This document shows positions 2 to 18,365 of a stretch of 18,484 nt of DNA, one piece after another; position 1 is the first letter of the stretch, and each line of letters opens with the position of its first letter. Position numbers and translations under genes: made by a program. The notes below the pieces were generated by a model. The model was not told where the DNA came from. It made no database searches and was given only the letters and a program-made list of their open reading frames with translations. The stretch spans positions 1-18,484 of the forward strand of contig WJIO01000423.1 in assembly GCA_014730235.1 (NCBI GenBank). Reading direction: 5' to 3'. Origin of the DNA: Candidatus Poribacteria bacterium. Its GTDB lineage: Bacteria > Poribacteria > DTPJ01 > WJIO01.

Positions 2-3000
2 TTAAATAGCTATGAAGGTCGAATTATTGCTGAGAGATTGGATATAGATAAGATTATCTCCGATTTTCAGGGAGTTCCATCACCTGTATCAACCCGCATG
101 GATGCTCAGTTAGCTTTAGAGGGAACTGAATTACATCCGGGTCGGGTAAAAATGGATGGCCATATATCCCTTCAAGACCTAAAAGCGGATATGCCCTCTT
201 CAGACAACAATTCAGAAACCAGGACTGCTGAAATCGGTCTTGTTAATACCAGTCTTTCGCTGGATCAAGGTCAAATAAATATCGATGTATCACATTCTAA
301 TTCTAAAATCCATGTTGAGGGAAAGCTGACGGATGATGGAAGACTCAGTATGTCAGTTTCCGCAGATCCTATAAACCTGGCAGAGGTTTCATCCATCGCC
401 ACAGGTGTACCAACTGTCAGGGGTAAAACAGAGATAAACGCTGACGCAAATATGGAAATAGCAGAACCGGGTATACGAAAAATGATGGGATTGTCACCAA
501 TCCAGCAATCTTCGGACTTTATCCAGGGTATCTCAAATCTCAAGGCACAGGTTGAAATATCCACACCGGATATTATTATCAAACCTGCTGGAACTGATGG
601 TGAAATAGCGGCAGGAACGCTGACAGGTAAACTTAATCTTAAAGATAATCTTCTGGAAATACAGGAGATAGCACTTCGAAAAGATACTACCAGAACTTCA
701 ATTGATGGAACAGTATTACTGGAAGAAAAACCTTATTTAAATGCTCAACTGGTTATTGATTCATTAAATATTCAGGATTATATGACTATTTTGGGTGAAC
801 AGCAAATACCTGTTAAAGGCGGCATGGTAAATGGAAAGCTGACAGCAGAGGGTAGGATTGACAGAATAGATGGAGGTGGAGAAATAAATATATCCCAGCT
901 TGTTGTAGCTGATAGACCTATTGATCCTGTAAAGATACCTGTTGAATTAAATTCCGGAGTTGTTGATATTAACGATATGATGATATCCAGTGAAAATGAG
1001 TATATAAAAATTAATTTCAGCATGGATCAGTCGGGGGATTATGACTTTGATGTGGTATCTTCGGATATAAATCTATCAGGTGTAATCCCTGAGAATTATG
1101 CAGTCAGCGGTCTTATAAACGTGTCTGTTTCCGGAAAAGGAAACCTCAAATCCCCGGCTTTTGATGGTAACATTGAAATTGTAAATCTGGCTTATAATGA
1201 CCAGGCCTTCAGCGATTTAAATTGTTTGTTTAGCCTTGATAAAGGAAAAATCCATGTTGATTTAAGTCTTTCTGATCAGTCGCTTGTCGCTGTTTTTGAT
1301 AGCGGAATTGAATTTCCTTTTCCGTATAAGGCCAGGGTTAAAATTGACAATATTAACTTTGATCCTCTCCTTAATACTGCTGAAATCAGTCGTAATTTTA
1401 AAATAGGTTTAGTTGGTTCTATAAATGCAGAAGGTCAGGGAGCATATCCGGAAAAATCCCTTGTTAAAGCTAATTTCCTTTCTCTGATAATTGATGCAGA
1501 GGGATATAAATGGTCCAATAATAAGCCTATCGAATTTACTTATGAAAATGGTAAAGCAAAAATTGAGTCATTTAATATAGAGAACGAAACCAGTTATATT
1601 TCCCTGAATGGACAATACACACTTAATAACAATAAACTGCAAGGGGAATTAAAAGTCAGCGAACTTAATCTTACCCCGATATCGAAGATGATCCCCCAGG
1701 TTAAAACAATAGACGGAAAAATTAATTATAAGGCAAAATTCGGCGGCAAGCTTGAGTCTCCGGTTATTCTTATGACCCTTTCCGGTTCCGATATAAATTA
1801 TGAAAAAATCAATATCAGAAGAATATCAACCCAAGCATCATACAAAAAAGGTAAAGCCGAATTGGAAGAATTGCTGGTCAGAACTCTTGGCGGTGAAGCC
1901 AAAATAAAAGCCATGATGCCAATTGAATTTAACATCATGGCTCCGCCAACTATTGAAGATATTATGGGTAAACCCGTCTATGTTTCTGTTGATGCCAAGA
2001 ATTTTGATCTGAGTATGGTAAAATCCTTTGTTCCCCAGTTAGTAAAATCCCGGGGTAAAATAAGTGAAATTCATTTAGAGGCCACAGGGTTACCAGAATA
2101 TCCCAGAATTGGTGGATATATCAAGATTAATAACGCCGAATTTCAGCTTGAGAGTATGCCCGTTCCTCTGGAAAATATTAACGGTACATTCTCAGTTATG
2201 AGTCTTGATGTAACCGACCCCTTGTCTCCGGATGGTACTGTTGATGGTTTATCTATGGTGAAAGATTTGAACTACAGGAATTCTGTAAAATCATATCCTC
2301 TGGATTATGAATTAAACGGAAATATTGACTGGGTTATGGATAATGGAAGTTACAATTCAGAATTTTCTCTGAGAGTTCCATACTGGATGTTAAATGGTAA
2401 AAATCAGTTATCCAGCCCTGTAAGTAGAAACGGAAAACCGGATTTTCAATTTAGTATGGATATTCAGGATGGTCAATTAGGAGTATTTTTCAAGGAATTC
2501 TTGAAGGAATCAGATATCTCCGCTGATGGTTCTTTGTCCATGAATTTAGCTTTAAATGGTTCTTTCAACAAGTCAGATTTCTGGGTGTTCGATTCGGATA
2601 TTTCCAAAAGGCTTTCTGATACTGAAAAACTACTTTCTGAGATTAAAAGTCTGAGGGGTAATATAAACATTGACCCTGTCAATGTTTTAGTTAATGATGT
2701 AGGAATAAAAAACTATGAAAGCATAAGGTTTTATATAGACAAAAAAGGCCTGAATATAACGGAATTTCAACTTAATGTTACAAAATCCGTTGATCAAAAA
2801 TCAAAGCCAAAGGGATCAATCGCTGTATCGGGAACCATAGATACCGATTTAAATCTAAAATTAAACGTTCTGGGGCAGGATATTAATCCTGATCTTGCAT
2901 CATCTTTTGTTAATCCTCCGGAAGCTATGGGTGGAAATATGGGTTTCCGTTTTCTGGCAAGGGGGAAATTGCCAAAACCAATTTTCAGATTGTTTTTTGA

Positions 3001-5650
3001 AGGAAATAATCTGAATATACCCATATCCTCAACTAACGGACAGACAAAAATAGATAAGGTTATTCTAAAAGCCCGTTATAACGAAAATAATATCAATGTT
3101 GAGGATTTTCAGGTTGACAGCTTTGGAAACAAAATAGAAGCCAATGGTCTATTTCCTCTTGAGCTTTCCCTTCTTCCTGTTTCTGTAAATATACCGGATA
3201 AAGAAGTCAATTTTAAGATGCTGATGGAAAATTTCGATCTTCAGTTCCTGAAACATATATCACCTCAAATCCAGGAATCAAAAGGGAAAATCGAGGCTGA
3301 TATACAGGTTTCCGGAACTGTGAGTAAGCCAAATCTAAAAGGAAATCTTAATCTGGCTGATTCAACTTTCAGAATTATTCCTATTGTTCCTGAAACAGAA
3401 GTTGAGGATAGTTCAGCAAAACCTGTTCCACTGAATGTTGAAAATATAAATCTTAATATTACCATGAATGACGAAGGTATATTCATGGAAGAAACTGCGT
3501 TTAATATTGGAGAAGGGCATTATGAATTTAGCGGAAATATACAGCTTGGAAAACAGTTGATGCCCCAGTTATATGAAATTTCCTTCAAAGCCGCACCGGC
3601 AAAATTGGATCCCTTTGTGGCTCTGGGAGGGCCGGAACTGGCAAAACTTGTATCCGGAGAAATTACTATTGAAGGTGGTCTCAAAGGTGATTTCAGGAAA
3701 TTTCTGGAAGGTTCTATGATGGATAAAGTCAATTCAGTTTCCGGGCAACTGCTTATAGCTGATGAGGGAATAAAGGTCAACGCTGCACAGCATTTCTTTA
3801 CAAATCCCAAAAAGATGTCAGTAAACTTTAAAGACGGAAAGCTGAATTTAAGCTCATTTAAGCTAATTGACATGACATCTCAAAGCGAATTTTCCACCAG
3901 TATATCAGCCTTTGGTGAATGGGATATTGATGGTCGTAAGTTGTTTGATGCTACCGTAAATCTTGACATGGAGTTGGTCTCCCAGTTTATGCAGGACCCG
4001 GACCTTATGGGTGGGTGGCTGGCTTTTAAGCTTCAGGCCCGGGGTGAAGAGGTAGAATTCTTCTGGCCTCCAGAGAATTTCAACCAGAAACGCCCTCTGA
4101 AATTTGGTCTTGCTGTTCTGGATAAATTTGAAGGTAGGATCGTATACCGGGATAAAAACATATCTGTGGAAAAAATCAGTGTGTCTACGGGTCAAAACCA
4201 GATGATATTAAGCGGAAATGTGCCTTTGAACGATGAACTTATGGAAGTGCAATTTGATGCCCGATTGGATGATATGGGCATATTATCCCTTATCAATAAA
4301 GGGATAACAGAATCCAGCGGTACAGGTGTTGTAGGGGCGACAGTAACCGGAAATGCTTTGGAAATAGCTTCTGGCAAAAAAAGCCCCCATGTTGTGGGGT
4401 TCTGCCGTCTGGATAATCTGGATATAAATTTTGAAAGCTCAAACATAAAATTTGAAGATATAAGAACTGACATAGAATTTGATTCAAAAAGCATTTCTGA
4501 TAAACAGGGTTTTATAGCCCTGAAAAATTTTCGGGGAAAACTAAACGATGGAGATTTTTTCCTGGACAAAAAACAGGATACCAGGGCCGGGGTCGTAATA
4601 TTATGGGAAAAAGGTAACGTCTATAATATCGGTGAAATCCAGGATATATCCATCGTAATGCAAAACTGTGCTTTAAAACAACCTATGGTTTTCTCAATGT
4701 TATTTGATGGAGAATTAATGCTGAAAGGGCGTTTTGATAATCCCATAATTACTGGTAATATTACAGTAAACAGGGGGGAATACACCGAATCCCTGAACAG
4801 CTTGATACAAAAAACATTCCAGTCAAGGGAGATAGGCTTTAAGGCTTTTCTGGATTATCCCCTGGTTCAGGATCTGGAACTTGATGTTAATGTCCAGATA
4901 CCCGGGGATTTACGAATGGAAAACAGCCTTATGAATGTTGAAGCTCAAGCCGCGGCAAGAGTAAGGGGGTCTCTGGCCGGACCCCTTGTTTTTGGTCAAG
5001 CCAGTATTGTTGAAGGTGAATTTGCCTATTTTGGTCGCACCTTCACCATAACAGAGGGGACGATTAGAAATAGAGCTGAAATTAATCCTGAATACGACAT
5101 TACTGCTGAAACAGAGGTACAAAGCGATGTCGCAGACGGTGTGGACGATGAAACATTTATAGTCCGTATAGAAATTCGAGGTACTCTAAATGAGCGATTG
5201 CCTCCCTCCTTCACAATAGTTGGTGAAGGTGTTACCCAGGAAACACCTGATTTAAGCGAAGAAGAGATAATATCTATTCTGGCATTAGGAGCTACGCCGG
5301 AACAATTACTAAACAGGGCCTCAGAATCATCTTCGTCATCACCCCAAATGCTGGCTAAATGGTATCTGGAAAATCAGGCGGAAAAACGCCTTAATCTAAC
5401 GGAATTTGATATACAGATAGACCCTGATAACTCCAAGGAAACCCGTCTGGTCATGGCCAAGCAGTTAATGAGTCAGATTTCTGTCCTGGTTGATGTAGGC
5501 TACGGAGGTTTAGAACGATTGGGACTTGAATATGAATTGACTAAGCATCTGGCCATAAGTGGTGAAATTCAGCGCAAGGATTGGGGGTTGGATCTTAAGG
5601 CAAAACGTGAAAGCCCAACCATCTCAGGTCTATTTGACTTTTTGAAGTAG
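2..5650 (+). CDS. TamB-like translocation/assembly module protein (DUF490), 5'-truncated by window edge
   Basis: The reading frame is open from base 2, so the true start lies upstream; the TTG at 38 is only an internal codon. At least 1882 residues are present, longer than E. coli TamB (about 1260). The protein is almost entirely repeated amphipathic beta-strand segments with G-x-(L/I) and D/N turns, as in AsmA/TamB proteins that form a lipid-carrying beta-groove across the periplasm. The last ~200 residues match the conserved TamB C-terminal domain: FAYFGRTFTITEGTIRN near residue 1665 (counting from base 38), a 'ETFIVRIEIRGTL' strand, and SEEEIISILALG. The next gene encodes an Omp85 barrel protein 19 bases downstream, the usual TamB-TamA/BamA pairing. 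Role by family: transport of phospholipid or assembly of outer-membrane proteins, anchored in the inner membrane by an N-terminus not seen here. The family call is firm; the exact cargo is unknown. Confidence 0.92.
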   Translation, partial: LNSYEGRIIAERLDIDKIISDFQGVPSPVSTRMDAQLALEGTELHPGRVKMDGHISLQDLKADMPSSDNNSETRTAEIGLVNTSLSLDQGQINIDVSHSNSKIHVEGKLTDDGRLSMSVSADPINLAEVSSIATGVPTVRGKTEINADANMEIAEPGIRKMMGLSPIQQSSDFIQGISNLKAQVEISTPDIIIKPAGTDGEIAAGTLTGKLNLKDNLLEIQEIALRKDTTRTSIDGTVLLEEKPYLNAQLVIDSLNIQDYMTILGEQQIPVKGGMVNGKLTAEGRIDRIDGGGEINISQLVVADRPIDPVKIPVELNSGVVDINDMMISSENEYIKINFSMDQSGDYDFDVVSSDINLSGVIPENYAVSGLINVSVSGKGNLKSPAFDGNIEIVNLAYNDQAFSDLNCLFSLDKGKIHVDLSLSDQSLVAVFDSGIEFPFPYKARVKIDNINFDPLLNTAEISRNFKIGLVGSINAEGQGAYPEKSLVKANFLSLIIDAEGYKWSNNKPIEFTYENGKAKIESFNIENETSYISLNGQYTLNNNKLQGELKVSELNLTPISKMIPQVKTIDGKINYKAKFGGKLESPVILMTLSGSDINYEKINIRRISTQASYKKGKAELEELLVRTLGGEAKIKAMMPIEFNIMAPPTIEDIMGKPVYVSVDAKNFDLSMVKSFVPQLVKSRGKISEIHLEATGLPEYPRIGGYIKINNAEFQLESMPVPLENINGTFSVMSLDVTDPLSPDGTVDGLSMVKDLNYRNSVKSYPLDYELNGNIDWVMDNGSYNSEFSLRVPYWMLNGKNQLSSPVSRNGKPDFQFSMDIQDGQLGVFFKEFLKESDISADGSLSMNLALNGSFNKSDFWVFDSDISKRLSDTEKLLSEIKSLRGNINIDPVNVLVNDVGIKNYESIRFYIDKKGLNITEFQLNVTKSVDQKSKPKGSIAVSGTIDTDLNLKLNVLGQDINPDLASSFVNPPEAMGGNMGFRFLARGKLPKPIFRLFFEGNNLNIPISSTNGQTKIDKVILKARYNENNINVEDFQVDSFGNKIEANGLFPLELSLLPVSVNIPDKEVNFKMLMENFDLQFLKHISPQIQESKGKIEADIQVSGTVSKPNLKGNLNLADSTFRIIPIVPETEVEDSSAKPVPLNVENINLNITMNDEGIFMEETAFNIGEGHYEFSGNIQLGKQLMPQLYEISFKAAPAKLDPFVALGGPELAKLVSGEITIEGGLKGDFRKFLEGSMMDKVNSVSGQLLIADEGIKVNAAQHFFTNPKKMSVNFKDGKLNLSSFKLIDMTSQSEFSTSISAFGEWDIDGRKLFDATVNLDMELVSQFMQDPDLMGGWLAFKLQARGEEVEFFWPPENFNQKRPLKFGLAVLDKFEGRIVYRDKNISVEKISVSTGQNQMILSGNVPLNDELMEVQFDARLDDMGILSLINKGITESSGTGVVGATVTGNALEIASGKKSPHVVGFCRLDNLDINFESSNIKFEDIRTDIEFDSKSISDKQGFIALKNFRGKLNDGDFFLDKKQDTRAGVVILWEKGNVYNIGEIQDISIVMQNCALKQPMVFSMLFDGELMLKGRFDNPIITGNITVNRGEYTESLNSLIQKTFQSREIGFKAFLDYPLVQDLELDVNVQIPGDLRMENSLMNVEAQAAARVRGSLAGPLVFGQASIVEGEFAYFGRTFTITEGTIRNRAEINPEYDITAETEVQSDVADGVDDETFIVRIEIRGTLNERLPPSFTIVGEGVTQETPDLSEEEIISILALGATPEQLLNRASESSSSSPQMLAKWYLENQAEKRLNLTEFDIQIDPDNSKETRLVMAKQLMSQISVLVDVGYGGLERLGLEYELTKHLAISGEIQRKDWGLDLKAKRESPTISGLFDFLK

Positions 5651-5669: not shown

Positions 5670-8600
5670 ATGTTTTATAATCTATATAAAATCGGTCTTA
5701 TTATAATAATTCTAATATGCTTTTGCCCGGTATGGGCATCGGGTCAAAATTCTGATTATTCACCATCAGGTCTGGAATTTATTGGACAAAAGATTGTGAG
5801 TATTGATTATCGGGGGGATGGTGAATTTTCCAGGGAAAAAGTAGAATCTGAAACAACAATAAAAGTTGGTGACTTATATTCCCGAAGTTCAATAAGAAAA
5901 AGTATTGAAGGTATTTACTCTATAGGTAGTTTTTCCGACGTGGAAGTAGATGTAAAGACAACGGATGATGGTCTGAATATAATTTTTATCCTCATCACAA
6001 AAATCCGGGTTCGAAGTATTGAGTTACAGGGTAATGAAAATCTTAAGCGAGAGAAAATACTACAGGTTATGAGACTTCAGGTAGGTCGGGATTATGATAA
6101 ATCCATAGCTGAGGCTGATGAAAATTCTATTAAGGAGTTATATAAATCTCAGGGATATTATAATACCCAGGTGAAACTGGATTCTCTGAATATTGATGGT
6201 AAAACTAAAGAGGCAAGTCTTGTATTTGTTATTAATGAAGGACAAAGACCTGTTATAAAGAAGATAGTCTTTATTGGCACTATGGAAGCGGTCATAAGTG
6301 ATAAAGAGCTTCTGGAAACTATGCAGCATATGAAAATAGGTAATAAATACAAGGGTCAGGAAGTTTTAAGAACAGATGCCAGACTTATCGAGGAAAAATA
6401 CAGAAGCAAAGAATATATTACCGCAAAAGTAAAAACTGCAAAAGCTTTATCGGATAAAGAAAACGTCAGGAAATTTACCGAGGAATCACTGTTCAGCATT
6501 AAAAATGAATACCAGGCAGAGTTGGATAACCTGAAAATATCCGAAAATCTGACGAAAACTTTTAACGAAAACGGTGTATTTTTATCCCCCGAAGCATATG
6601 TTTCTATTGTGACTTCAGGTTCTGTATGGATTATATCAGATCGAGGTAAAAAATATATAATCAGGAAACATAATGATAAATTGGATATATCCCGGCAATT
6701 AGGGCGGCATTTTCCAAAAGATTCAGTGGAAATTTATTCAGAGGATGATAACAGCGTTTTGATCTTTATGGAGGTAGAGCAGGGAAGGCGCGTATATATA
6801 AAAATCCAGAAAAAGGAAGACGGCAAATATGTCGGGGTTGATGATGAGGAAGAAATTAAGAAATCCATAGCAGTTAATCGTATGCACTCAGTTACAGATC
6901 CTGTTCTTAACCGAAGTGCTGAAGATATAAGAAATGTATATCGTTCTAAAGGTTATTATCAGGCAGAGGTTAATTACAGCATACTAAATGATAAGGTATG
7001 GGGTTTTAATAATGAAGATGATACAGAAGGTTGGACACCTGAAAATGAAAGCACAACTTTAAAAGTAGTGGACAGGATTTTAACAATAGAAACCGCTGAT
7101 AATAAACCTGTAATTATAAGCCCTGAAATCCGACTTGATGCCAGTATATACAGGCGATTCCATATAAGAATGCGCTGTGAACTGGGTTCATTGGCTACAG
7201 TATACTGGCTTACTGAAGATGATAAAGACAAATGGAAGTCCGAGCGTCAGGTAAGTTTTGACATTATATCGGGAAACCAGTTCCGGGATTACGCTATTGA
7301 TATAGGCCGCAATAAACATTGGTCAAAGACAATAAAGCAATTGAAAATTGAAGTTTCCGATAAAGCAGGAGCAGATGCGGAGATCTCTACCATCAACCTT
7401 ACAACAGAATATATACCGGTTATTTTTAACGTTATCGAAAATAATAAGATGATTATCAGGGATAAGGTTACAATAAAATCTGCAACTGATGAAGAATTGG
7501 AAGTAGAACCTGAAAATATAAGAAAGCAGATGCTTACCAGAAAAAAAAGCTTCTGGTCTTTCTGGCTCTTTAAAAAATATTTTTCAAGTGGTATACTGGA
7601 TAACACAATTTTAGAAGCTGATCGCAAAGCCATAATAGCCTTTTATAAAGATAAAGGTTATACTAATGTCAGTGTAAATAAAAAGATAAATCCAAAACCT
7701 GAAGAGGAAAAAATTGATGTTACTCTGGAAATAACAGAGGGATCAAAAACTCTGGTAACTGATATTTATGTTCAGGGTGATAACGGGGAGATAATGAGTA
7801 ACGAAGAAATATTTTCAAATTTGACAGTTATAACGGACTTCAAGAAAGAAAACATACAGGTTGAAAGTGAATTTCCCCGTAGAATTCATTACAAGGCGGA
7901 TAATCCAAAAATATTCAGAGAAGAAGATACAGTCGCCGATAGATCTTATTTACGCACAAAATATGCAGATGAAGGATATCTTTACGTGCAGGTTGAAAAA
8001 ACGGAGAAATTTAGCGATGACAATTCTCAGGTTTCTATAACATACAATATTGATGAAGGCCAGAAAATAAGAATTGATGATGAAATTGAGATACAGTATT
8101 ACCGCATAATTGATGGAAGACAGGTGTTTTTAACTGAAAGTCAGGCCAAAACAAAACCACATATTATCAAGCGCGAATTATCAAAGCGTTTGACAGAAGA
8201 AAGGGTATTCAGCTATACAGAAATAGCCCGTAGCTGGCAGCGTATCTATGATCTTGGCTTGTTTGAGGGAGTTAAGATTGACACAAAACCTGTAACTGGT
8301 GTTCCCGACATGGTTAAGATTATTATTGAAGTAATTGAAAGAAACGCAATTTCCGTTAATACCCATATAGGATTCAGTTCAAATGATAATTTTCGTGGTG
8401 GTATAGAGTTTAACCATCGTAACCTGTTTGGAACAGCCCGAACTATGGGCGGGAGAATCCAGATAGGTACGGAGGGAACTCGTGGTGAAATTAACTACAT
8501 TGAGCCGAAAATCTTTGGAAGTGAAGCTTACGGCCTGACAGATATACACAGGTATTCAGAGGAAAATATTAACTATCCGGAGACATGGACAGGTGGTACA

Positions 8601-9275
8601 GTTGGTATAGGTCATGGACTTGGCAGAAATAACACTTTCATGTATAAATACAGGTATGACCTGCTGGATTATATAGACAGGCAAGATGAGCGGAAAAGAA
8701 CAACCAATATCGGTAGAGTGGAAACAACTTTCCGGAGGGATACCCGTAATAATCCCCTTAACCCTATAGATGGATGGTTGCATGTATTAAAACTGGAACA
8801 CGCAAATGATCGTCTGGGTGGTACAGAGACATTTACAAAAATTACTTTTGATAACACCCATTACATACCCTTACCCCTGAATTCTGTATTTGCTTTAGGT
8901 ATCATGACCGGTTGGGTAAGAGGGTTGGACGAAGCCGATCTGGTTCTTACACCCGAGCAGTTCCAGATGGATGATTATAATGTACCCCGGGGATATACAT
9001 GGGATAAAGACGATACCAGTAATGTGCTGCTTAATACGAGTATCGAATTGCGTTTTCCCATATACAAATGGTTAGGAGGAGCCTTTTTCTTTGATTCAGG
9101 ATATATTTATAACCGCATACAGGATTTTGATATAACAGAAATGAAATCATCTATAGGTACAGGATTAAGATTTTCGACACCTATAGGCCCTATAAGGATA
9201 GACTATGGATATCCAATAAGGGGAAACGGAAAGAGAAACTATTGGCCCCATTTTGCATTAGGACATGCTTTTTAG
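5670..9275 (+). CDS. Omp85/BamA-TamA family outer membrane protein with ~7 POTRA domains and two inserted segments
   Basis: 1201 residues; BamA is about 800 and TamA about 580. A hydrophobic signal peptide (residues 5-24, ending WASGQ) is followed by POTRA-type repeats at about 41-113, 114-190, 196-375 (interrupted), 373-590 (interrupted), 597-692, 696-799 and 800-890. These show the typical 'Y.s.GYY...V' helix-to-strand pattern and end in strands such as 'LVFVINEGQ'. Residues 893-1201 are the barrel: the loop-6 motif PRGY is at 1106-1109, a 'GGAFFFDSGYIY' strand at 1136-1147, and the terminal residue is Phe as in a beta-signal. Residues ~440-582 break the fourth POTRA and look like a jelly-roll carbohydrate-binding module. 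Residues ~257-360 break the third. The ATG follows the tamB-like stop by 19 bases with only a weak Shine-Dalgarno, suggesting one transcript. By family it inserts or exports proteins or lipids at the outer membrane; whether it is the BamA or TamA equivalent cannot be decided here. Confidence 0.93.
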   Translation: MFYNLYKIGLIIIILICFCPVWASGQNSDYSPSGLEFIGQKIVSIDYRGDGEFSREKVESETTIKVGDLYSRSSIRKSIEGIYSIGSFSDVEVDVKTTDDGLNIIFILITKIRVRSIELQGNENLKREKILQVMRLQVGRDYDKSIAEADENSIKELYKSQGYYNTQVKLDSLNIDGKTKEASLVFVINEGQRPVIKKIVFIGTMEAVISDKELLETMQHMKIGNKYKGQEVLRTDARLIEEKYRSKEYITAKVKTAKALSDKENVRKFTEESLFSIKNEYQAELDNLKISENLTKTFNENGVFLSPEAYVSIVTSGSVWIISDRGKKYIIRKHNDKLDISRQLGRHFPKDSVEIYSEDDNSVLIFMEVEQGRRVYIKIQKKEDGKYVGVDDEEEIKKSIAVNRMHSVTDPVLNRSAEDIRNVYRSKGYYQAEVNYSILNDKVWGFNNEDDTEGWTPENESTTLKVVDRILTIETADNKPVIISPEIRLDASIYRRFHIRMRCELGSLATVYWLTEDDKDKWKSERQVSFDIISGNQFRDYAIDIGRNKHWSKTIKQLKIEVSDKAGADAEISTINLTTEYIPVIFNVIENNKMIIRDKVTIKSATDEELEVEPENIRKQMLTRKKSFWSFWLFKKYFSSGILDNTILEADRKAIIAFYKDKGYTNVSVNKKINPKPEEEKIDVTLEITEGSKTLVTDIYVQGDNGEIMSNEEIFSNLTVITDFKKENIQVESEFPRRIHYKADNPKIFREEDTVADRSYLRTKYADEGYLYVQVEKTEKFSDDNSQVSITYNIDEGQKIRIDDEIEIQYYRIIDGRQVFLTESQAKTKPHIIKRELSKRLTEERVFSYTEIARSWQRIYDLGLFEGVKIDTKPVTGVPDMVKIIIEVIERNAISVNTHIGFSSNDNFRGGIEFNHRNLFGTARTMGGRIQIGTEGTRGEINYIEPKIFGSEAYGLTDIHRYSEENINYPETWTGGTVGIGHGLGRNNTFMYKYRYDLLDYIDRQDERKRTTNIGRVETTFRRDTRNNPLNPIDGWLHVLKLEHANDRLGGTETFTKITFDNTHYIPLPLNSVFALGIMTGWVRGLDEADLVLTPEQFQMDDYNVPRGYTWDKDDTSNVLLNTSIELRFPIYKWLGGAFFFDSGYIYNRIQDFDITEMKSSIGTGLRFSTPIGPIRIDYGYPIRGNGKRNYWPHFALGHAF

Positions 9276-11096: not shown

Positions 11097-12092
11097 ATGA
11101 AATATTTTTGGTTAGATGCAAGAGAATGGAACAGAGACCTGATTACAACAGCCCTGGAAAGCGGTGCCGATGGAATAGTTGTAAATGAAGATAAAGTTAA
11201 TAAAGTAAAAGAACTGGGAATCATCAAGACAATTGCGGAAAATGGAGACATAAAACTCGGTGAGGATGTTATAGAACTGGAAATTAACAGCAAGGCGGAT
11301 GAGGATGAGGCTGTAAAACATAGTAATACCAGAATGGTAATAGTTAAAACCGGTGACTGGATGGTGATACCTCTGGAAAATTTGATTTCCAGAGCCAGTA
11401 ATATTATTGCCTTTGTAAAAAGCAGTCAGGAAGCTGTATTAGCTATGGGTGCTCTTCAAACTGGTGTAAGTGGTGTTTTGCTAAAGACAGATGATATAAA
11501 TGAAATTAAGAAAGTTGCCCGGATGGTAAAAGAATCTTCAGAACATCTGGATTTAGATATAGCAAAGATAACCAATACGAAACAACTGGGTTTGGGTGAT
11601 CGAGTATGTGTTGATACATGCACAAATATGATAGGCAGTCAGGGCATGCTGGTAGGAAACAGCAGCAGCGGCATGTTTCTTGTCAGGGCGGAGAACATCG
11701 AAACCCCATACTGCGATCCCAGGCCCTTCCGCGTAAACGCCGGCGGCGTTCATGCTTATGTAAGGGTTCCAGACGGTAAAACCAGGTATCTGGCAGACCT
11801 GAAAACCGGTGATGAAGTTCTTATTGTAGATTCTGATGGCAATGGTCAGGCAGCCTTTGTAGGAAGAAATAAAATAGAGCGTAGACCCATGATCCTTGTA
11901 GAAGCAGAATGCGAAGACAAGAAAAAAGTATCCTTGATACTCCAGAACGCCGAAACGATAAGATTGACAAAAACCGATGGTTCTCCCATTTCAGTAGCAA
12001 AGCTCAGTAAAGGTGATGAAGTCTTGGTTTTTGTGGAAGATTCTGGTAGACACTTTGGTGTGAAGATTGACGAAAATATAGTAGAGAAGTAA
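11097..12092 (+). CDS. 3-dehydroquinate synthase II (archaeal-type, AroB' family)
   Basis: 331 residues, similar to Methanocaldococcus MJ1249 (about 360). N-terminal part: KYFWLDAREWNRDLITTALE (residues 2-21) and 'GADGIVVN'. The diagnostic centre is 'GLGDRVCVDTCTNM' (165-178), 'GMLVGNSSSGMFLV' (183-196), 'PRPFRVNAGGVHAYV' (208-222) and 'PDGKTRYLADLKTGDEVL' (225-242). By family it performs the NAD-dependent oxidative deamination and cyclisation of 2-amino-3,7-dideoxy-D-threo-hept-6-ulosonate to 3-dehydroquinate, bypassing DAHP and classical AroB. The related GriH makes 3-amino-4-hydroxybenzoate with GriI; sequence alone does not settle between these. The partner aldolase (AroA'/GriI) is not in this window. 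The ATG at 11097 lacks a clear Shine-Dalgarno but gives the expected N-terminus. The gene lies just after MITE copy 1. Confidence 0.88.
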   Translation: MKYFWLDAREWNRDLITTALESGADGIVVNEDKVNKVKELGIIKTIAENGDIKLGEDVIELEINSKADEDEAVKHSNTRMVIVKTGDWMVIPLENLISRASNIIAFVKSSQEAVLAMGALQTGVSGVLLKTDDINEIKKVARMVKESSEHLDLDIAKITNTKQLGLGDRVCVDTCTNMIGSQGMLVGNSSSGMFLVRAENIETPYCDPRPFRVNAGGVHAYVRVPDGKTRYLADLKTGDEVLIVDSDGNGQAAFVGRNKIERRPMILVEAECEDKKKVSLILQNAETIRLTKTDGSPISVAKLSKGDEVLVFVEDSGRHFGVKIDENIVEK

Positions 12093-16361: not shown

Positions 16362-18365
16362 ATGCTGGACATATATCCTCTGAGTTTTGCTTTACTGGCC
16401 TTTGCCGCTTCTATACCCGAAAGCAAAGTATATGAAAATTCAATAGGGATGAAATTCACACGTATTGAACCAGGTAGTTTCATTATGGGGCAGGAAGACG
16501 GTGATTTTGATGAACGTCCTGTCCACAAAGTAAACATTACAAAACCTTTTTACATGGCTGTTACCGAAGTGACCAACCAGCAGTATGAAGAATTTAACCC
16601 GGATCATAAAAAACTTCGGGGAAAACGTGGTTTTTCAAAAGACGATGACGAAGCGGTTATATTTGTAAATTGGCATGAAGCCGTTGATTTTTGTAAATGG
16701 CTTGGGGAAAAAGAGAGTTTACCTTACAGGTTACCCACTGAAGCGGAATGGGAATACGCTTGTCGGGCTGGAACCCAGACACCATACAACACTGGCGATG
16801 AAATTCCCAAAATGTATCATAAACACCAGGAACACGAATGGGATCCTGTTCCTGTACCCCTGCATGTGGGAAAAACCAAGCCTAACGCATGGGGATTGTA
16901 TGATATGCATGGTAACGTGGAGGAATGGTGTCATGACTGGTACGGAAGATATATAGATAACGAGCAGACTGACCCTGTTGGCATGATCAGCGGCACAATG
17001 AAAGTTACTCGCGGAGGGAGCCATAACACAACACCGGAATTCCTGCGATCAGCCAATCGTCTTGGAACATTACCTGAGGATAAAAGCTGGCTTATAGGTT
17101 TTCGGGTGGTGCTGGGTGAAATGCCCGAAACAAAACCCCTGCCCCCTCCAGACCCCAAGCTTTGGGCTGTGAATGTCAGTCAAGATGCCTATAAATGGAC
17201 CAAAGGCCCGGATGAACCGTATTTCAAAGGTCCGGTTGAATACGTCAAATACCCCCCGGATCGAGAAAATATCCCCATGTATGACCACAACCATTGTCCC
17301 AGCATAACATGGTGTGAAAACGGTGATCTGCTGGCTGTGTGGTTTTCCACCATTCATGAGAGAGGACGGGAACTGACTATCCTGGCCAGTCGGCTAAGAC
17401 AGGGAAATGATGAATGGGATGATCCAGCAGAATTTTTCAAAGCGCCAGACAGAAATATGACCGGCTCTGCCCTGTATTATGATGGTAAGGGTAAATTATA
17501 CCATTTCAACGGTTTGGAAGCCGGTGCAAGATGGGCAAATCTGGCCCTTACATTACAGACCAGCACCGACAACGGCGTAACATGGTCACATCCAGAACTT
17601 ATCTGTCCTGAACATCAACCGCGAAACCAGGTCATCAGCGGTACGTTCAGAACTAAAGAAGGTTATCTAATTCAGCCATGCGATGCAGTCTACAGCGGCA
17701 ACGGTGGAACAGCCATACACATCAGTAAAGACGAAGGTGAAACATGGTATGATCCCGGAGCTGGAACTCCCAAGCCCGATTTCAAGACAGCTAAAACCGG
17801 AGGCACTATTGCCGGTATTCATGCCGGTGTAACTCAACTTAAAGACGGGAGTCTGATGGCCTTTGGTCGCGGTGATAATCGCCTGGGAAGTGACGACAAT
17901 ATCGGAGAACGTATGCCCAAAAGCATGTCAGGTGACATGGGTGAAACATGGAGCTATACTGCCAGCGAATTTCCGCCTATTGATGGTGGTCAAAGAGTTG
18001 TATTGATGCGCCTGATAGAAGGCCCAATTTTGTTTATATCCTTTACCGATTCCAGCAGAAATCTTGATGATCCTGAAGGCCTGGTTATAACCGACTCATC
18101 CGGCGAGGAAAAGCGTGTATACGGTTTATTTGCAGCCCTTTCCTTTGACGAAGGTCAGACATGGTCTGTCAAAAAGCTTATAACAGCCGGTGATGTAAGC
18201 AAGGAACTGGACGGTGGGGCCTGGACCCGTAATTTTACAATGGATGCAACCCATGCTGAACCCAGAGGTTACATGGCAGCAACCCAGTCACCAGATGGCA
18301 TGATACATCTTATTTCCAGCCGTTTGTATTATAAGTTTAACCTGGCATGGCTGAAAGCTGAGTAG
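16362..18365 (+). CDS. FGE-sulfatase-like (SUMF1) domain fused to BNR/Asp-box sialidase-like domain
   Basis: 667 residues. Residues ~24-252 are an FGE-sulfatase fold: 'GMKFTRIEPGSFIMGQ' (29-44), 'ERPVHKV.I.KPFYMAVTEVTN' (51-72), 'LPTEAEWEYACRAG' (124-137), 'NAWGLYDMHGNVEEWCHDWYG' (175-195), 'RGGSHNTTPEFLRSANR' (217-233) and 'GFRVV'. The two catalytic cysteines of true formylglycine-generating enzyme (3 and 8 residues after RGGS) are Thr223 and Leu228 here, so it probably does not make formylglycine. A Pro-rich linker (259-266) leads to a six-bladed-propeller-type domain with four Asp-boxes: STDNGVTW 401-408, SKDEGETW 455-462, SGDMGETW 523-530, SFDEGQTW 594-601. The opening 'HCPSITWCENGDLLAVWFS' (311-329) fits the BNR_2 group and lacks the RIP arginine of classic sialidases. 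The N-terminus has a short hydrophobic stretch (6-17) but no basic residues, so export is uncertain. AAGGGAG (16348-16354) supports the start. Confidence 0.88.
   Translation: MLDIYPLSFALLAFAASIPESKVYENSIGMKFTRIEPGSFIMGQEDGDFDERPVHKVNITKPFYMAVTEVTNQQYEEFNPDHKKLRGKRGFSKDDDEAVIFVNWHEAVDFCKWLGEKESLPYRLPTEAEWEYACRAGTQTPYNTGDEIPKMYHKHQEHEWDPVPVPLHVGKTKPNAWGLYDMHGNVEEWCHDWYGRYIDNEQTDPVGMISGTMKVTRGGSHNTTPEFLRSANRLGTLPEDKSWLIGFRVVLGEMPETKPLPPPDPKLWAVNVSQDAYKWTKGPDEPYFKGPVEYVKYPPDRENIPMYDHNHCPSITWCENGDLLAVWFSTIHERGRELTILASRLRQGNDEWDDPAEFFKAPDRNMTGSALYYDGKGKLYHFNGLEAGARWANLALTLQTSTDNGVTWSHPELICPEHQPRNQVISGTFRTKEGYLIQPCDAVYSGNGGTAIHISKDEGETWYDPGAGTPKPDFKTAKTGGTIAGIHAGVTQLKDGSLMAFGRGDNRLGSDDNIGERMPKSMSGDMGETWSYTASEFPPIDGGQRVVLMRLIEGPILFISFTDSSRNLDDPEGLVITDSSGEEKRVYGLFAALSFDEGQTWSVKKLITAGDVSKELDGGAWTRNFTMDATHAEPRGYMAATQSPDGMIHLISSRLYYKFNLAWLKAE

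Follow-up and report, generated by a model that had tools for sequence, protein, structure and literature searches.

The Omp85 proteins, TamA and BamA among them, are recognized by POTRA repeats followed by a C-terminal Omp85 barrel, and TamA additionally by the adjacent tamB gene. The TamA of E. coli contains three POTRA domains (PMC4525385). Rickettsia palindromic elements are a described system of another kind: small repeats of about 150 nt that lie in frame in unrelated coding genes (Ogata 2000, reviewed in PMC10969869). The locus presented here can be compared with both. It lies in a window of 18,484 bases, which is an entire contig (C370) of a Candidatus Poribacteria genome (G000), and contains the following features:

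38..5650, + strand: TamB-like protein, 5' end cut by the contig (PF04357, E 1.1e-29)
5670..9275, + strand: TamA-like Omp85 with seven POTRA domains and a C-terminal barrel, 1201 aa (Pfam)
6246..6461, + strand: first part of POTRA3, residues 193-264 (PF07244 profile positions 1-67)
6486..6695, + strand: POTRA3 insert, residues 273-342, a copy of a dispersed in-frame element of ~70 aa (profile matches; empty site in locus L053)
6753..6791, + strand: closing strand of POTRA3, SVLIFMEVEQGRR (alignment)
6795..6986, + strand: first part of POTRA4, beta1-alpha-alpha-beta2, residues ~376-439 (PF07244 profile positions 15-66, alignment)
6987..7406, + strand: POTRA4 insert, beta-sandwich of the CBM type, residues 440-579 (alignment, segment scans, model)
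7407..7445, + strand: closing strand beta3 of POTRA4, EYIPVIFNVIENN, residues 580-592 (alignment with orthologues and L053)

The host protein has the composition of an Omp85: Pfam finds seven POTRA stretches (PF07244) along its 1201 residues and a single barrel match (PF01103) at residues 918-1201 with an E value of 2.7e-36. The TamB gene directly upstream, separated from the Omp85 frame by a gap of 20 bases, is the reason why we name the protein TamA-like, and the same gene arrangement is found in a second genome of the order (G001, locus L053). The window genome encodes another, shorter Omp85 (811-aa frame) elsewhere, on contig C326, thus the window protein is best termed TamA-like. As it has seven POTRAs and not three, the label does not go beyond this likeness. 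Further along the window, positions 11097-12092 encode a 3-dehydroquinate synthase II (PF01959), a form of the enzyme best known in archaea, and a single frame at 16362-18365, read from its sequence, apparently fuses parts that resemble the formylglycine-generating enzyme and a sialidase.

The sequence-only reading of this DNA had placed a jelly-roll, carbohydrate-binding-like module at 6987-7415 (residues ~440-582), interrupting the fourth POTRA before its closing strand. The translation reads as it was quoted there, inside the open frame 5670-9275, and the Pfam segments and the orthologue alignment agree on the interruption. Of the proposed bounds the start is kept, but the end is better set at residue 579, since residues 580-592 already form the POTRA4 closing strand. 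The insert of about 140 residues lies exactly in the beta2-beta3 hairpin: when the protein was scanned in segments, the POTRA4 match ended at position 66 of the 79 profile positions, near residue 443, the residues of the insert had no POTRA match, and the closing strand followed ~140 residues further on. Twelve aligned poribacterial orthologues (about 900-950 aa) have a short turn at this hairpin and no insert, therefore the additional ~140 residues are a genuine insertion; as MAFFT misplaced the closing strand in the orthologues that lack the insert, we located the hairpin by visual inspection of the strand patterns. The order-mate (DTPJ01000836) carries an insert at the same place. The two inserts are 34% identical, most flanking segments 42-52% and the whole proteins 45%. 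The insert is thus present in both genomes examined from the order and absent from a genome of another family (G059), and the suggestion that it could be lineage-wide is correct for this one order but not for the phylum, where the twelve orthologues lack it. Scans of genome contigs for the window protein recovered only the order-mate and one further orthologue (JAJEAL010000057), and no relative was found in the viral contigs searched.

The fold proposed for the insert was borne out by modeling. AlphaFold models of residues 362-700 from two sequences predict an all-beta insert of eleven strands and no helix, with pLDDT values mostly about 70-80 in its blocks; neither two plain POTRA folds nor a standard POTRA alignment was obtained for this region. 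The POTRA parts were poorly modeled (pLDDT about 25-50), so the docking of the sandwich against them cannot be read from the model. The best PDB matches of the insert in Foldseek were carbohydrate-binding modules (CBM29, CBM86, CBM16, CBM4 and CBM15, E 3e-6 to 2e-4), and VIA-align gave a Z score of 13.3 both with CBM29 (1gwl, rmsd 2.8 over 130 residues) and with the N-terminal part of Xyn10B (2w5f), which we take to be a CBM22. The top VIA match was the phage protein 'Megatron' (8gtc_M, residues 481-635, Z 13.5). A profile built from four module sequences hit one PDB chain only, again 8gtc_M, at residues 494-626 with an E value of 2e-4; the same stretch tops both the profile and the structure search, which lends the fold independent support from sequence. 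No match was obtained when only the insert was searched against PDB sequences, and none of the Pfam CBM families matched it, the best score being 13.7 bits for Alpha-amylase_N, below its cut-off of 23. By its modeled jelly-roll fold of about 130-150 residues the insert belongs to the beta-sandwich CBM superfamily, and by sequence it reaches the curated cut-off of no named CBM family. The structural search also brought up proteins with non-sugar roles that share the fold, namely a complex I assembly factor (7zkq/7zkp) and FlaA1 (9cyn). Numerous tail and receptor-binding proteins of phages were returned from a viral structure library, which is to be expected of a CBM-like fold, and these matches were not weighed.

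Relatives of the module occur in the window genome as small, apparently secreted stand-alone proteins, two in tandem on contig C375 and one on C251, as well as in further Poribacteria families. The module is also a part of longer proteins, one of which contains a WbsX/GH99-like domain (L051). Its sequence relatives are thus secreted proteins or belong to carbohydrate-related enzymes. The motif GGDPY...FPGG.W is common to the stand-alone members; tandem genes for such small secreted proteins of the CBM fold, with this motif and a conserved KLATTWAKIK-like C-terminus, were seen at L002, L040/L046 and L039/L047. No member of the module family was found in housekeeping genes. The GGDPY...FPGG motif is gone from both Omp85 copies, and several aromatics are conserved between the window and L053. 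The fold and the likely donor of the POTRA4 insert are clear. The proposed glycan or peptidoglycan binding, on the other hand, is unsupported, and sugar binding unproven, when judged by the missing Pfam CBM match, the lost motif and the non-sugar roles in which the modeled fold is also found.

The POTRA4 insert is not alone in this protein. Approximately 300 bases upstream, another insert, which the sequence-only reading did not mention, lies in the beta2-beta3 turn of POTRA3, where the POTRA match ends at profile position 67, about 95 residues before the closing strand. The two inserts occupy the same topological place and are unrelated. That the POTRA4 insert is itself a copy of the dispersed element was considered and rejected, as its profile matches only stand-alone secreted or enzyme-like proteins and the two Omp85s. 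At the corresponding place the order-mate has a loop of ~20 residues, which aligns with both flanks (...AIEEY/RGRGKHF... vs ...NVRKF[...]RQLGRHF...); thus the lineage of the window has gained residues 273-342 by a clean insertion. These residues have a dozen further matches in the window genome, all of them within unrelated open frames.

A profile of 12 copies detects 15 or 16 copies of the element in the window genome, and 77 of the 84 Poribacteria genomes searched contain it, with 1-40 copies each (window 6486-6695; loci L057, L063, L065/L192, L172-L191 and L196-L210). Its hosts are unrelated to each other and many are housekeeping proteins; family models confirm RseP, SecA, an MFS transporter, a RAMP protein, LolD and NuoJ, and furthermore signal peptidase I, trigger factor, a CaCA antiporter, a flagellar rod protein and a C-terminal processing peptidase. 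Several of these hosts are normally essential, and the genes entered include some known as essential from model bacteria. No family matching the element was found in Pfam, NCBIfam or PDB, the element was not found in the viral, plasmid and phage collections searched, and no description of it was found in the openly accessible literature searched, which included the single-cell Poribacteria paper (PMC3909097). Modeled alone from one sequence, the element gave one helix followed by three strands at a poor pLDDT of 47.

One gene can be hit at different sites in different lineages, and relatives have clean empty sites. In RseP of the window genome two tandem copies lie within 147 extra residues, and the RseP of the order-mate aligns unbroken at 219/367. 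The TamA-like Omp85 was hit at two sites, in POTRA3 in the window and in the linker between POTRA5 and POTRA6 in genome G063 (L182, C536:1400-4000, residues 394-465); the latter site is empty in all eight other genomes of the same family, which align unbroken at 393/461-468. SecA was likewise hit at two sites, before GGLHIIGTERHESRR in the window genome and, in genus g8, ~150 residues further on. In C-terminal processing peptidases of two distant families (L198 in G001 and L190 in G063) the element apparently sits at the same site, before GVxPD, which is either inherited or a preferred target. In a LolD ATPase (L191, G063 contig C351) it lies between Walker A and the Q-loop region, and an ATPase of this type is expected to be sensitive to insertion. 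A CRISPR RAMP-superfamily protein of the window genome (L062, contig C1) contains two copies.

The element could, alternatively, be an ordinary ancient domain that was gained by recombination. However, the different sites per gene, the sharp edges and the codon sharing in G063 speak for a discrete unit that is copied. The 19 copies in G063 are conserved from the LLFS codons to just after LN(I/V)Y and end sharply there, and 45 of 51 copies are flanked by at least 30 open host codons on either side in the same frame, several of the remaining six being located at contig or protein ends. At shared residues the G063 copies use the same synonymous codon in 52% of cases, compared to 36% expected from host codon usage (z 20, which serves as a guide only, because the copies are not independent). 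This excess implies that the copies were spread as DNA. In the window genome the sharing is 0.398 against 0.404 expected, that is, there is no excess; spread was therefore recent in G063 and old in the window genome, and we do not claim recent copying for the window copy. The 19 junctions in G063 show no clear pattern of terminal inverted repeats or target-site duplications, and a few have direct repeats of 5-8 bases. In our judgement it is rather likely that Poribacteria harbor an undescribed family of protein-coding elements of ~70 aa which place in-frame copies of themselves in the turns and linkers of unrelated and often essential proteins (SecA, RseP, LolD, trigger factor, LepB, NuoJ and the TamA-like Omp85), that the POTRA3 insert is one old copy, and that the peptide was shaped into an independently folding unit that the host protein survives, in other words, selfish DNA disguised as a domain.

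For the protein as a whole, the explanation that fits best, with a probability of roughly 0.6, joins permissive hairpin insertions, a recruited side domain of the CBM fold and a neutral passenger in POTRA3. In this order, a beta-sandwich of the CBM fold has entered the POTRA4 hairpin between beta2 and beta3 in a TamB-linked Omp85 with seven POTRAs; later, in the lineage of the window only, the phylum-wide element of ~70 aa has come to lie in the matching hairpin of POTRA3. The tips of POTRA hairpins would be permissive sites. With an insert at such a tip, both the barrel and the edge at which the POTRA pairs with strands may stay usable, so that the host protein would still work. The CBM-fold module was probably recruited from the secreted stand-alone family that is still present in the genome, and it is now most likely a periplasmic side domain, a spacer or a surface on which a protein or a component of the envelope docks. 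The POTRA3 element would be best seen as a self-folding and host-neutral passenger. The faster evolution of the insert compared to its flanks and the loss of the family's signature loop make us favor a side domain over a module that actively reads glycans; the binding partner could still be a glycan.

One would argue that the POTRA4 insert is a working CBM, which anchors the assembly machine on peptidoglycan or LPS, or else recognizes glycosylated cargo, as its fold matches best to CBM29, CBM22, CBM86 and CBM16, a homologous module is attached to the WbsX/GH99-like protein and several aromatics are shared with L053. We consider this unlikely: the insert falls into no Pfam CBM family, both Omp85 copies have given up GGDPY...FPGG, the conserved aromatics are largely common to all modules and may be core residues, and the fold serves other roles too. 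It is equally doubtful that the POTRA4 insert is a passenger like the POTRA3 element, kept simply because it is harmless. The neighboring POTRAs were indeed hit twice at the same hairpin position, the insert changes faster than its surroundings and twelve orthologues manage without it, but two genomes whose versions of the protein share 45% identity have both retained a full-length open module, which suggests that it is not neutral, and its family was found in stand-alone secreted or enzyme-like proteins and not in housekeeping genes. That the stretch is a divergent extra POTRA or a disordered loop with no foreign domain is most improbable and was rejected on the segment scans, the orthologue alignment and the all-beta model, for although the POTRA parts are divergent and poorly modeled, the insert has no POTRA match, resembles CBMs in its fold and is cleanly absent in the orthologues.

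The POTRA4 insert shows that an outer-membrane assembly protein can carry a full domain of the CBM type on a POTRA hairpin; it is a natural test of the load that a POTRA arm can bear, and it may provide TAM machines with a new site for binding partners. The POTRA3 element is the more important finding of the two, since it points to a broader phenomenon: throughout the phylum, an element enters coding genes in frame, which bears on the way proteins gain domains. If the element is mobile, it represents a natural domain-insertion experiment with hundreds of repeats, charts where core proteins permit insertions and is a rare counterpart to the Rickettsia elements that is not palindromic.

Compared with the known systems, the window protein resembles TamA and BamA in its POTRA repeats, its Omp85 barrel and, as to TamA, its tamB neighbor, and differs from the E. 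coli TamA with its three POTRAs in having seven of them and two domain insertions in POTRA hairpins. The POTRA4 insert shares fold and size with CBM29, CBM22, CBM86, CBM16, CBM4, CBM11 and CBM30 (Z 11-13 over 125-145 residues), but is only 10-15% identical to known CBMs, is matched by none of their Pfam families and sits inside an Omp85 POTRA hairpin. Its best sequence-profile match in PDB and top structural match, the Megatron of siphophage vB_DshS-R4C (8gtc_M), is a phage tail protein whose architecture is unrelated to Omp85. The poribacterial element, finally, lies in frame inside unrelated protein-coding genes as the Rickettsia palindromic elements do; however, it is ~210 nt long instead of ~150, it is not palindromic and forms no hairpin (fold z-scores -0.82 and 0.24), it codes for a conserved peptide with a predicted helix and strands, and it is spread across a whole phylum.
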